Below are positions 11,380 through 42,790 of a stretch of 64,000 bases of DNA, piece after piece; within the stretch, counting starts at the first letter, position 1; the number at the start of each line of letters is the position of its first letter. The position numbers and the translations under genes are program-made. The stretch covers positions 1 to 64,000 of the forward strand of contig NZ_JACONT010000011.1 in the NCBI RefSeq assembly GCF_014358075.1. The letters are read 5' to 3'. The stretch comes from Sphingomonas albertensis (GTDB lineage: Bacteria; Pseudomonadota; Alphaproteobacteria; Sphingomonadales; Sphingomonadaceae). Under the pieces are notes generated by a model that worked only from the letters and a program-made list of their open reading frames with translations, searched no databases and was not told where the DNA came from.

Positions 11380-11482
11380 CACCCCGGCAAAGGCCGGGGC
11401 CCAATTGGGGGACGTCGCCAACGGTGTTCAGTCCCTCGTTACTGCGACCTTTCCAATTGGACCCCGGCCTCCGCCGGGGTGG
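11380..11482. repeat. Palindromic intergenic repeat, family B, copy 2
   Basis: The arms CCCCGGCAAAGGCCGGGGCC + CAATTGG and CCAATTGG + ACCCCGGCCTCCGCCGGGGT are inverted. The core CTCGTTACTGCGAC is shared with the other two copies. Confidence 0.75.
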
Positions 11483-11519
11483 TGCTATTCGGCGAGGGTG
11501 TCGAAGCCCCCCCTTTCTA

Positions 11520-11592
11520 GTTCCCCCGCGAAGGCGGGGGTCCAGGACCACGAACACTACCGCCAGTAACCCTGGACTCCCGCCACCGCGGC
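11520..11592. repeat. Palindromic intergenic repeat, family D (long-loop form)
   Basis: The left arm GTTCCCCCGCGAAGGCGGGG, followed by GTCCAGG, pairs with CCTGGACTCCCGCCACCGCGG. The loop contains ACCACGAACACTACCGCCAG, also seen in decayed form near 160-180. Confidence 0.65.
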
Positions 11593-11643
11593 AAAACAAT
11601 ATTCCGATTGTCCTACATCAACCGTTCGACGTATGTTCCAAGC

Positions 11644-11765
11644 ATGACGTCCCCATTCGCTCCCCAAACCCGCCCGCTAACGCCCCCATCTCCTCCCGAG
11701 GAAATGCTGCGCCAGCGTCTGCACTTCCTATACTTCACTCCAATTTCGGCGACGCAAAATGGCTG
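11644..11765 (+). CDS. Putative short upstream ORF with conserved peptide, coupled to rmuC
   Basis: This possible 40-codon leader frame starts with ATG at 11644. Its TGA (11763-11765) overlaps the rmuC start (ATGGCTGA). The segment 11701-11739 encodes EMLRQRLHFLYFT and is nearly identical at the nucleotide level to two segments on the - strand upstream of the DUF418 gene (42240-42278 and 42398-42436). It may be a translated leader peptide. The conserved DNA also includes TATACT, so it could instead be a promoter that happens to be open in this frame. Whether it is expressed is unknown. Confidence 0.4.
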
Positions 11766-13210
11766 AGTTCGCCATCATCGCCGTCCTCGCACTAGCCGCC
11801 GGCATCCTGCTCGGCTGGCTCCTCGCCTCCCGCCGGGCCGCCGCCCTAGCCAGCGAACTCGCCGTCGCCCAAACCAAGGTCGCCGACGCCGACCTCATCC
11901 GCACCGCCCGCGACGCAGTCGAACGCGAACGCAACGCCGCAATGCAAGACCTCGCAACGCTCCGCGCACAGAACGCCGAGCGCGCCACCGACACCGATCG
12001 CCTCCGCGTCGACCTCGCAACGATCCGCGCCGACCGGGACGAAGCCCGCACCGAGATCGCGACGCTCAAGGCGCAAGGCGAAGCGTTCGAAGCCCGCCTG
12101 CTCGAACTCCGCGAGGCAAAGGACGTCATGGCCGCGCAGTTCGGCGACGTCGCCAACAAGCTGCTCAGCGATGCGCAGAAGACCTTCCTCGAACGCGCCG
12201 ACGCCCGCTTCCGCCAGTCCGAAGAGTCCGCCGGCCTGAACCTCAAGTCGATGCTCCAACCCGTCAGCGACCGCCTGCAACGCTACGAGGAAGGCGTGGC
12301 CAAGGTCGAAGCCGAGCGCCGCGACGCGTTCGGCGACCTCAAGGGCCAGATCGAGCAGATGCGCCTCGGTCAGGAAAAGGTCTCGACCGAAGCCGCCAAG
12401 CTCGTCAACTCGCTCCGCAACGCCCCCAAGTCCCGCGGCCGCTGGGGCGAGCAGCAGCTCAAGAACGTCCTGGAAACCTGCGGCCTCAGCGAGCACACCG
12501 ACTTCCAGACGGAGGTTTCGGTCGCGGTAGGCGACGATGGGGCAAGGTTGCGTCCAGACGCAATTATCCGCGTCCCCGGCGGTCGCGCACTGGTCATCGA
12601 CGCAAAGGTCTCGCTCAACGCCTACCAGGACGCATTCGGCGCGGTCGACGACGCCGAGCGCCTGATCGGCCTAGCAGCGCACGCCGCCTCGATGCGCGCG
12701 CACGTCAACGGCCTCGGCAACAAGGCCTATTGGAGCCAGTTTGCCGACACGCCCGACTACGTCATCATGTTCGTCCCCGGCGAACACTTCCTCTCCGCCG
12801 CGCTCGAACACGACCCGACGCTCTGGGACTTCGCCTTCGAAAAGCGCGTGCTGCTCGCGACTCCGACCAACCTGATCGCCATCGCCCGGACGGTTGCGGC
12901 GGTCTGGCGCCAGGAAAAACTCGCCAACGAAGCACGGAAGATCGGCGAGCTCGGCAAGGAAATGCACGATCGCCTCGCCAAGGTGGCGGACGACCTGCGG
13001 AAGGTCGGCGTCGGCCTCAACAGCGCGGTGAAGAACTTCAACGGCTTCACCAACTCGTTCAACGGCCGCCTGATGGTAACCGGTCGGAAATTCCGCGACC
13101 TGAACATCGAGACGGGCGCGCGGGATCTGGAGGATGTGTCCTCGGTCGACGCACTGGCGCTAGGCGAGGGGCCTGCGCTTATCGAGAGGCCGGAGAACGT
13201 CGAAAGCTGA
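11759..13210 (+). CDS. rmuC: DNA recombination protein RmuC homolog
   Basis: This 483-residue protein has an N-terminal membrane anchor (about 3-22, followed by SRR), a long coiled coil (about 25-205) rich in Ala, Glu, Arg and Asp, and the conserved RmuC nuclease-like core. Core motifs are RGRWGEQQLKNVLETCGL, RPDAIIRVPGGRALVIDAKVSL and MFVPGEHFLSAAL. RmuC is linked to limiting DNA inversions and rearrangement, and its core is related to restriction-type nucleases. The start codon is overlapped by the stop of a short upstream frame carrying a conserved peptide. Confidence 0.9.
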   Translation: MAEFAIIAVLALAAGILLGWLLASRRAAALASELAVAQTKVADADLIRTARDAVERERNAAMQDLATLRAQNAERATDTDRLRVDLATIRADRDEARTEIATLKAQGEAFEARLLELREAKDVMAAQFGDVANKLLSDAQKTFLERADARFRQSEESAGLNLKSMLQPVSDRLQRYEEGVAKVEAERRDAFGDLKGQIEQMRLGQEKVSTEAAKLVNSLRNAPKSRGRWGEQQLKNVLETCGLSEHTDFQTEVSVAVGDDGARLRPDAIIRVPGGRALVIDAKVSLNAYQDAFGAVDDAERLIGLAAHAASMRAHVNGLGNKAYWSQFADTPDYVIMFVPGEHFLSAALEHDPTLWDFAFEKRVLLATPTNLIAIARTVAAVWRQEKLANEARKIGELGKEMHDRLAKVADDLRKVGVGLNSAVKNFNGFTNSFNGRLMVTGRKFRDLNIETGARDLEDVSSVDALALGEGPALIERPENVES

Positions 13211-40974: not shown

Positions 40975-42231
40975 CTAGTCCGATCGGTTCGTCGTGAACG
41001 CCGAACCGCGCATCGGCTGCCACGCGAATCGCGACAGGCTGCGCCACAGCCATTCGAGCGGACCATAGCGGAAGCGATCGAGCCAGGGCTTCGACCATAG
41101 GAGCATCAGCAGGCAGATCGGTGCGACCACGAGATAGAGCTGGGCTCGCGACAGTGCGCCGTACAGCCCGAACCCATATCCATAGAACAGCGTGGTGCAG
41201 AGGACTGTCGTGCCGAGATAGTTGGAGAACGCCATTCGACCTGCCGCCGCAACTCGGGTCGTCAGCCAGCCGCCGGGCTGTGCGAGCAGGATGATTGCCG
41301 CGGCGGACCCCATGATCGTCAATGGCCGAAGCGGGGTTGCGAGCGCGAGCCATGACAGCGCGACATAGCGCGCGTCGAATCCGTGGGCGATGTCGAACGC
41401 CGCGATGGCCGCAGAGCCTATCCAGCCGAGTCCGATCCCAATGACCGCAATCACGGTGTAGCGTCGCCGCGACCAATCCCCCGTCAGGAACCCCGATCGC
41501 AGCCCCGCCATGCCGAACAGCATGAAGCCTAGCGTCTCCGGACCAGTGGCGGTGAGGGACGTGATCGGCCCAGCGGCGTGCGTCCAGCGCCACGCGACCA
41601 GATCGCGCCATCCGCCATGACCGATGGCAAGTTCGCGGGTGACGGAGGCGGGGGAGGGCTGGCCGAATTGATCCGCCAACAGCTGCCAGTTCGTGATTAC
41701 GCGCGCCGTTGCGCCCGGCCGGTGCGCGGCGCCGTGGAGGTCGAACGTGTAGGCGACGAGCGTCGTCAGCTCGACCGTCTGGAACGCGATGCAGGCGAGC
41801 CCGACGCCGATCAGCCAGCGCACCGGCAACCGCGCGAACATGTACGCAATCGCGCCGACCAGTGCGTAGTGCGCGAGGATGTCGCCCCACCACAGCAGGT
41901 ATAAATGCGCGATGCCGAACACGAACAGCCATGCCATCCGGCGGAGGTGGACGGTCGCCGGGTCTTCGCCGCTCGCCTCCGCCCGGTCGAGCACCAGTAG
42001 CATCGACGCGCCGAACAGGAACGAGAACAACCCGCGCATCTTGCCGTCGATAACGATGAAGGTCGTGGTCCAGGCGATCAGGTCTGGCGTGCTCGGCGCG
42101 CCCATCGAGGCGGGGGTCATGTAGGCGAATTCGGGGAAGCCGAATGCGGCGATGTTTGAGGCGAGGATGCCCATGACGGCAACGCCCCGGGTGAGGTCCA
42201 GCGTCGCGATTCTCGTGGGGGCGGGGGTCAT
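40975..42231 (-). CDS. DUF418 family membrane protein
   Basis: This 418-residue inner-membrane protein has about ten hydrophobic segments. It starts MTPAPTRIATLDLTRGVAVM, the usual DUF418 N-terminus (R-x-x-x-L-D-x-x-R-G), and has FSFLFGASMLL and SNYLGTTVLCTTLFYGYGFG. The family (related to YeiB and to acyltransferase-like membrane proteins) has no settled function. Its ATG overlaps the TGA of a short upstream frame (ATGA at 42228-42231) that encodes the conserved LRERLHFLYFT peptide. A decayed copy of its own 5' end lies upstream. Confidence 0.85.
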   Translation of the reverse strand: MTPAPTRIATLDLTRGVAVMGILASNIAAFGFPEFAYMTPASMGAPSTPDLIAWTTTFIVIDGKMRGLFSFLFGASMLLVLDRAEASGEDPATVHLRRMAWLFVFGIAHLYLLWWGDILAHYALVGAIAYMFARLPVRWLIGVGLACIAFQTVELTTLVAYTFDLHGAAHRPGATARVITNWQLLADQFGQPSPASVTRELAIGHGGWRDLVAWRWTHAAGPITSLTATGPETLGFMLFGMAGLRSGFLTGDWSRRRYTVIAVIGIGLGWIGSAAIAAFDIAHGFDARYVALSWLALATPLRPLTIMGSAAAIILLAQPGGWLTTRVAAAGRMAFSNYLGTTVLCTTLFYGYGFGLYGALSRAQLYLVVAPICLLMLLWSKPWLDRFRYGPLEWLWRSLSRFAWQPMRGSAFTTNRSD

Positions 42232-42326
42232 GCGGGCAGAGTGAAGTATAGGAAGTGTAGACGCTCGCGCAGCGTTTCGTGGGAGTGTCGTATCGCTTGG
42301 GATAAGCCGATTTCGACGGCGAGCAT
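42228..42326 (-). CDS. Putative short upstream ORF with conserved peptide, coupled to DUF418 gene
   Basis: A frame of about 32 codons ends ETLRERLHFLYFTLPA, with its TGA overlapping the DUF418 ATG. The segment 42240-42278 matches 11701-11739 upstream of rmuC at 36 of 39 positions. The only ATG (42326) lies inside the duplicated segment, so the start is uncertain. Translation is unproven. Confidence 0.4.
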   Translation of the reverse strand: MLAVEIGLSQAIRHSHETLRERLHFLYFTLPA

Positions 42327-42469
42327 GCTGCTGACGGCGCCTCCGCGGACGAGGTCGAGCGTGGCGGTTCTGGCGGGGGCAGAGGGCTTGCGGGAAAAGT
42401 GAAGTATAGGAAGTGCAGACGCTCGCGCAGCATTTCCGTGAGGTCGTCGTACACGCTGGAAGACGACAT
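42279..42469 (-). pseudogene. Decayed partial duplicate of the upstream ORF and DUF418 5' end
   Basis: The segment 42398-42436 repeats the conserved peptide element (MLRERLHFLYFT), in a frame beginning at ATG 42469 (MSSSSVYDDLTEMLRERLHF). It is followed by codons reading KPSAPARTATLDLVRGGAV, which align with MTPAPTRIATLDLTRGVAV of the intact gene. The start codon is AAG instead of ATG, and similarity ends after about 28 codons, where the second copy begins. I read it as a tandem duplication with decay. Confidence 0.65.
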
Positions 42470-42790
42470 GATCGCGCTCGGCGCCGCTGCGGTAGTGGCG
42501 GCCTCGGCTGGGCCGGCCCGACACAGGTGGTGCTTGGTCTACGCTCGAATCCGGTCGATGCGTCTTGGTAGCGCTGTAGGCGTGGAATGCTTCGATCATC
42601 GTCCGACGCTGGCATATCGCAGTTGTGTAGGACAGTCTGTCTTGACGGGCATCTAGGCGTCAGATGCCTCGCGGCTTGGTGCGTCGGCCACCCGGCATGT
42701 CATCTGCTTGACCTGTCGTCCCTGCACAATACCCCGCCGTATCTCGCCTGTTGTCCTCTTCGGCTGTCGCCCCCGAAGCCGATCCGCCCC
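42470..42790. other. Intergenic stretch with no recognised gene
   Basis: Between the duplicated 5' segment and the family I repeat I see no coding sequence with normal codon bias, no RNA gene and no hairpin terminator. It probably holds the promoter for the DUF418 transcript, but no clear -35/-10 pair stands out. Confidence 0.5.

Follow-up and report, generated by a model that had tools for sequence, protein, structure and literature searches.

The closest described systems are of two kinds, regulatory sites and dispersed repeats. Tandem operators of dimeric repressors or response regulators are direct repeats set about one helical turn apart, optionally with an inverted half-site, and leader elements of the ops/JUMPstart type are conserved elements in the early transcribed region. 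Among the repeats, the CGTC REPs of alphaproteobacteria carry a CGTC tag joined to a stem of 8-9 bp with a loop of 4-5 bases, followed by a CCA-like tail, in the portion of the published account drawn on here (PMC3733652).

The element considered here lies in the first 64,000 nucleotides of a contig of Sphingomonas albertensis (NZ_JACONT010000011.1), the whole of which we call the window. An earlier note on this DNA had pointed to a 39-bp repeat, and a comparison across the window bears it out: the reference copy (11701-11739, forward strand) lies upstream of rmuC, and copies with one mismatch (42398-42436) and three mismatches (42240-42278) lie on the reverse strand. Set against the 42398 copy, nowhere else in the window lies within 13 of 39 mismatches. 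The conserved part, which we call the core, is 23-26 bp long: AGCGT is followed by two 9-mers in tandem, both of the pattern STRNACTTY, and then by a short tail. The features in the window are as follows.

11609..11617, forward strand: TGTCCTACA, the -35-like conserved motif of the rmuC unit (motif scan; 0-1 mismatch in 23 rmuC leaders)
11632..11637, forward strand: TATGTT, a possible -10 picked out by eye (conserved in the 23-genome rmuC alignment)
11644..11646, forward strand: ATG 35 bases after the T of TGTCC, the probable 5' end with a leaderless-type start (23 of 23 rmuC leaders)
11644..11765, forward strand: the 40-codon frame of the earlier note, open and without codon-level constraint outside the core (rmuC leader comparison)
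11714..11739, forward strand: core of the rmuC copy, AGCGT + CTGCACTTC + CTATACTTC + ACT, with two tandem 9-mers (sequence matches, rmuC alignment)
11759..13210, forward strand: rmuC (Pfam RmuC, 2.9e-95)
42626..42634, reverse strand: TGTCCTACA motif of the DUF418 unit (motif scan)
42597..42599, reverse strand: ATG at +35 of the DUF418-unit motif (motif-to-ATG spacing)
42398..42423, reverse strand: core of the first DUF418 copy (sequence matches)
42240..42265, reverse strand: core of the second DUF418 copy, 158 bp further on and adjoining the DUF418 start (sequence matches)
40975..42231, reverse strand: DUF418 gene, its start placed at 42231 from the frame and its end from the ORF (Pfam DUF418, 6.7e-12, on the part 41200-42231)

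The repetition is not due to chance, because an 18-bp core with up to two mismatches has 8 matches in the genome of the window (G000) and its reversed control has none. The two DUF418 copies, spaced 158 bp apart with similar downstream flanks, are not independent and look as expected of a tandem duplication. Pairs of cores at the same spacing also occur in G018, G163, G185, G189 and G191, and triple copies in two genomes (loci L193 and L289). Four copies stand at a single locus in each of G018 and G203 (L026, L198), 122-124 bp apart in G018, and each of these units has a C/G-rich, hairpin-looking stretch. Directly upstream of the rmuC unit, at 11460-11550 of the window, are palindromic C/G-rich repeats (ccccgcgaaggcggggg) with the look of ordinary alphaproteobacterial REPs. 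The core itself contains CGTC, but what comes next, TGCACTTCCTATACTTCACT, is a direct repeat without the stem of a CGTC REP, and we rejected that assignment.

A search of the genus, as the earlier note had suggested, found the core (up to two mismatches) in 23 of 295 genomes at 1 to 26 copies per carrier, with 10 in the genome of the window. Scanning named genomes gave at least 117 core stretches; 80 stretches, among the matches listed, belong to Sphingomonas (S. faeni, S. aurantiaca and other strains) or to one uncultured isolate tagged Sph. The 97 distinct copies (the faeni group) were gathered by pattern, which misses diverged copies and favours similar ones, and clustering of their flanks yields 15 groups, the largest of which merges several loci. 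That the element precedes unrelated genes holds well beyond rmuC and DUF418. Pfam-supported genes behind the copies include, besides these two, an M48 peptidase, a creatinase/prolidase-type peptidase, moeA, thiD, dnaX, groEL and PPDK, and one copy precedes gyrB (GHKL ATPase domain). A holin-like membrane protein, biotin carboxylase, nadB and topA were identified by eye; products read from translations in this way comprise moaC, prfC, biotin carboxylase, sufS, nadB, topA, pdxH, maiA, holin, tgt, prs and comM. The neighbouring genes have no common theme.

One reading in the earlier note is a translated leader peptide whose frame is coupled to the start codon of the gene behind it. Its statement that the frame ends on the gene start is right for rmuC, where the TGA overlaps the ATG at 11759, and for the 42240 copy of DUF418 (ATGA, 42231-42228), and wrong for the 42398 copy, from which the frame stays open beyond 1.6 kb. 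At genes beginning with ATGA, we reason, chance alone would bring the TGA of the frame to the gene start at about one locus in three. At rmuC the frame is kept. The ATG lies at +35 from the T of TGTCC in 23 of 23 genomes and at a distance of 115 from the rmuC start in 22 of them, and the frame is open and joins that start in 22 of 23 leaders, stopping 4 bases short in G273; leader length is preserved, and the sole deletion (G075) removes 9 bases. Codon positions 1/2/3 of the 22 leaders of equal length (the shorter G075 leader left out) differ by 0.209/0.240/0.237 ahead of the core, by 0.225/0.077/0.205 inside it and by 0.293/0.361/0.237 beyond it. The low second position in the core, taken alone, would also fit a conserved frame, but outside the core the positions are flat, and the comparison of synonymous with nonsynonymous change that the note had proposed gives no synonymous surplus: 780 of 2591 single-base codon changes (30%) are synonymous in the leader frame, against 668 of 2114 (32%) and 793 of 2135 (37%) in the other two. 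Frames also vary from locus to locus, and the M48 orthologues show all three phases in which the ATG frame can cross the core. At holin, moeA and other copies, among the matches listed, there is no start codon in that frame, other copies have no sense gene behind them, and at one locus the core appears to lie within a long coding frame in another phase. Conservation at the amino-acid level together with a conserved frame and start was not found, the frame itself being kept at rmuC, and a coupled leader peptide seems to us scarcely credible. Constraint on the nucleotides, which the note had named as the alternative, fits the analysis.

The core is one part of a two-part plan. The window has two matches to TGTCCTACA (0.06 expected), both upstream of a core. 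Among the 97 faeni-group copies, 65 have this motif (up to one mismatch) within 260 bases upstream, and 49 of those 65, by a hand count, have an ATG at +33 to +37; no motif lies in that range at the other 32, which include groES-groEL, holin and PPDK. A match to CTGTCCTACA-N26-ATG does occur further upstream of PPDK in G018, G052, G073 and G074, where we take it to lie inside the upstream gene. The genome of the window contains TGTCCTACA 18 times, fewer than the reversed control (43), and of 17 sites read, five precede a full core and a sixth a decayed one (prfC-like gene). Motif and core are 69 to 241 bases apart in the faeni group. Generally, the unit begins with promoter-like CTGTCCTACA, has an ATG about 36 bases on, and then the tandem repeat, often 72-87 bases past the ATG. 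We infer a sigma70-like promoter with its start at or beside the ATG.

The same plan emerges when the search starts from the motif. Within the genus, 122 of 250 genomes contain CTGTCCTACA-N26-ATG (reversed pattern, 5), and within the order 96 of 296 do (reversed pattern, 3), 6 of these 96 being outside the family of the window. Of the 30 genus loci read, five of which belong to the faeni group, 18 have a tandem 9-mer (identity 8/9 or better) 45-160 bases past the ATG, against 0.4 expected from local shuffling, although a few among them (L385 and L393, for example) are unlike cores; such a repeat follows at 6 of 24 loci in other genera of the family (0.2 expected) and at 1 of 6 in other families (0.0). 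Genome G523 has 41 cores, and its 30 exact ones were read. In 25 of the 30 the motif (up to two mismatches) stands 81-123 bases before the core (median 115), accompanied in 21 cases by an ATG at +33 to +39; the remaining five have no motif within 200 bases. From ATG to core the distance is 80-83 in 11 of 13 G523 copies, and in a further genome, G136, it is 74-79 in 9 of 12. All these copies were picked by CTGTCCTACA-N26-ATG, so that the ATG is given and not found. In both sets the core is nearly invariant and the spacer variable, the G136 spacers being somewhat alike. Motif and core go together from both directions. A second repeat type, CCTAACC..CCTAACCTTC, is present in the leader of groEL (G000, G018) and, at other places, after the same promoter motif (L085, L086, L216, L374); it is perhaps another class of core.

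Units are not tied to a gene behind them. With gene context assigned by a GC-position heuristic and not by annotation, a sense gene lies downstream at 21 of the 30 genus loci and a convergent gene at 8, with neither at one; the 24 loci in other genera divide into 21 sense and 3 convergent. In G523, 20 of 30 copies face a convergent gene and 10 a sense gene, and at 17 of the 20 the opposite stop codon is within 60 bases of the core. At gyrB the unit is upstream of a promoter-like block that adjoins the gene, is common to all 30 genomes read by eye, and looks like gyrB's own promoter. The gyrB unit is missing in G000, G187 and G157 and was seen outside the group only in G239. At the gyrB loci L031, L040, L052, L174 and L191, the unit ATG is in frame with GyrB and would lengthen its N terminus if used. 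Among the thiD leaders (L116-L127, L032), those of G000 and G075 have the gene directly after the promoter-like motif; most others are core-bearing, about 100 bases long, with ATGACCGCC or a near copy at either side.

Could these be small RNA genes? Each would give a transcript of 100-120 bases, its tandem repeat serving as a constant 3' handle for an RNA-binding protein or a complementary RNA. The unit has a promoter motif of its own, its copies are independent of the downstream gene, and the core is close to the likely 3' end, but the spacer is weakly conserved between copies. On RNA folding, pairs changed on both sides number 0 of 13 in G136 and 0 of 6 in G523, and no Rfam family matches at the core in the 9 and 20 loci searched. 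The microRNA matches listed by Rfam score under the gathering scores and lie away from the core, and a 4.5S RNA upstream of dnaX in L182, above its gathering score, is separate from the core. We find small RNA genes unlikely. The same searches revealed neither conserved stems with compensatory changes nor an Rfam match of the kind expected of a structured cis-regulatory RNA, and we rejected an RNA hairpin, in which a left arm pairs with the core in only 14 of 97 copies, without covariation in the two alignments.

Base composition bears on a Rho-dependent attenuator, in which a C-rich, G-poor leader would be the Rho loading site and the core a pause or release site. In 54 faeni-group leaders C averages 46% and G 18%, and C minus G reaches at least 0.25 in 69% of the faeni-group leaders, compared with 0.8% of background segments from the window. 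The skew is suggestive within the faeni group but appears in just 8% of 50 other units (a few of them from the faeni group), and loading by Rho would leave the lineage-specific repeats unexplained; we regard such an attenuator as quite improbable.

The repeats are indeed specific to lineages, and the two repeats of one site change together from lineage to lineage. Others on the same plan are GTCCACTTC twice, GTAGCTTTT GTAGCTTTC, CTCAACATT twice, GTGAACTTA GTGAACTTC and GTGTAACAT GTGTAACA; the G523 repeat, GTGTCAACTTA GTGTCAACTTC, has an 11-base period. The holin locus exists in two types, present in 12 and 11 of 23 genomes, between which the core differs by 34%, compared with 6% within a type. 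The 12 bases before the core differ by 10% within and 19% between types; for the opening 60 bases of the gene the corresponding values are 14% and 15%. A figure for the upstream gene, taken from unaligned sequence, is left out of this comparison. The moeA locus has different repeats across lineages, as does the prfC-like locus by eye, and a unit precedes a biotin-carboxylase-like gene in two lineages, with an indistinct repeat in one (L372). The TATACT proposed earlier as a -10 box gives way to TGCACT or TGAACT at the same position in other genomes, and as the -10 of the downstream gene it was discarded on the ground that the hexamer differs between types. The stretch TTCCTATACTT (window 11725-11735) resembles part of a yeast FRT arm, a likeness taken as coincidence because it is absent from type 2 cores. 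An inverted third half-site (up to three mismatches) accompanies 14 of the 97 faeni-group copies, several of them orthologous, at offsets of 10, 11, 20 or 21 bases only, which fit helical phasing on DNA.

Cores tend to be more alike within a genome than between genomes. Per 23 bases, they differ by 1.64 within a genome, by 3.41 between orthologues of different genomes and by 3.55 between non-orthologues. When the genome labels were shuffled, a within-genome mean this low came up in 0 of 500 trials; the test covered the 5 genomes that have 6 or more copies (74 of 97 copies, 23 dropped), with 40 of 97 copies left without a locus label by the anchors. The mean is strongly lowered by G018 (0.35), and two genomes, G000 (3.0) and G185 (3.36), are near the between-genome level.

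Likeness within genomes would also arise in a small non-autonomous mobile element, MITE- or REP-like, with the promoter motif and the repeat core as its ends, because copies spread or are overwritten by copying. Copies are interspersed, from 1-26 per carrier genome to 41 in G523, form tandem arrays at 122-124 and 158 bp, sit between the genes of operons and face gene ends. The thiD and gyrB loci are each both occupied and unoccupied, ATGACCGCC stands on both sides of the leader at thiD, and the partial likeness of the G136 spacers fits copying of whole units. However, the ends are much more alike than the spacers, and loci remain occupied across species while chiefly the core changes. Comparison of occupied and empty loci by eye brought out no hallmarks of a MITE except the 9-base repeat at thiD: no terminal inverted repeats were seen, nor a clean target duplication at any other locus. 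A search for RAYT-type transposases (Y1_Tnp, PF01797) gave no match in 22 of 23 carrier genomes, and the one match, in G161, contains stop codons, while none of the loci L178-L180 has CTGTCCTACA; a REP/RAYT origin was rejected on this result. We hold a mobile element to be possible, if doubtful.

So, what are these units? The sequences show their architecture and spacing, the likeness of cores within genomes, and the absence both of codon constraint at rmuC and of covarying RNA pairs in two genomes, and we tentatively favour a family of short, autonomous and probably non-coding sphingomonad transcription units whose core is recognised by a putative co-evolving factor. A typical unit would open with a sigma70-like promoter whose -35 is CTGTCCTACA and whose start lies at or beside the ATG, continue with a spacer much less conserved than the unit ends, and carry the tandem repeat about 75-85 bases past the start. 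The core may be a binding site on DNA, or less likely on linear RNA, read twice by one type of recognition domain, and the putative trans-acting factor would co-evolve with its sites. Once bound, the factor would act on transcription that begins at the unit's promoter, and its most likely role is that of a roadblock or 3' boundary: copies that face convergent genes would end at the core, and in leaders such as those of rmuC and DUF418 the bound core would throttle the gene behind. Transcription from the promoter, the binding factor and the roadblock effect are the steps that we infer. Several observations sit poorly with this reading. No motif was found in the range searched at 32 of 97 faeni-group and 5 of 30 G523 cores, one copy is seemingly inside a coding region, the neighbouring genes lack a shared theme, and the motif-to-core distance in the faeni group is as variable as 69-241. 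It is unusual for some 20 sites of a host regulator to change in coordination, the low within-genome mean owes much to G018 and the pattern-based collection favours similar copies, and G136 spacers retain the likeness that whole-unit copying would give.

Whatever the mechanism, the units may represent an undescribed, family-wide class, with a fixed promoter motif, a lineage-specific tandem repeat about 80 bases past the start, and many sites per genome that change together, which would imply either a fast-evolving trans-acting partner or site-targeted copying; we put this at somewhat below an even chance. If true, sphingomonads hold sets of similar short units beside housekeeping genes (gyrB, dnaX, groEL, thiD, moeA), in which the repeats shift in step within a genome and the promoter motif stays fixed across the family. 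This would require either a many-site regulator that co-evolves unusually fast or copying of about 26 bases from site to site, and both are unexpected.

The earlier note knew of no described system with this sequence, and a search of open-licence PMC text likewise found no description of the unit. Like tandem operators, the sphingomonad core consists of direct repeats with an optional inverted half-site, but it lies about 80 bases downstream of the start, is lineage-specific and occurs at many unrelated genes. It shares with ops/JUMPstart its place as a conserved element in the early transcribed region, and is unlike them in being two tandem repeats that vary by lineage and are found at stand-alone units as well. 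Genome-specific sequence groups in extragenic positions recall GTAG REPs and REPINs, which, in the parts of the sources used (PMC2817692, PMC3116915), are hairpin doublets tied to RAYT, unlike the sphingomonad unit. With the CGTC REPs, so far as the excerpted account describes them (PMC3733652), the unit has in common that it is short, interspersed, species-specific and without a dedicated transposase; it differs from them in a core that is a direct repeat without a palindrome and in a promoter-like motif at a set distance.
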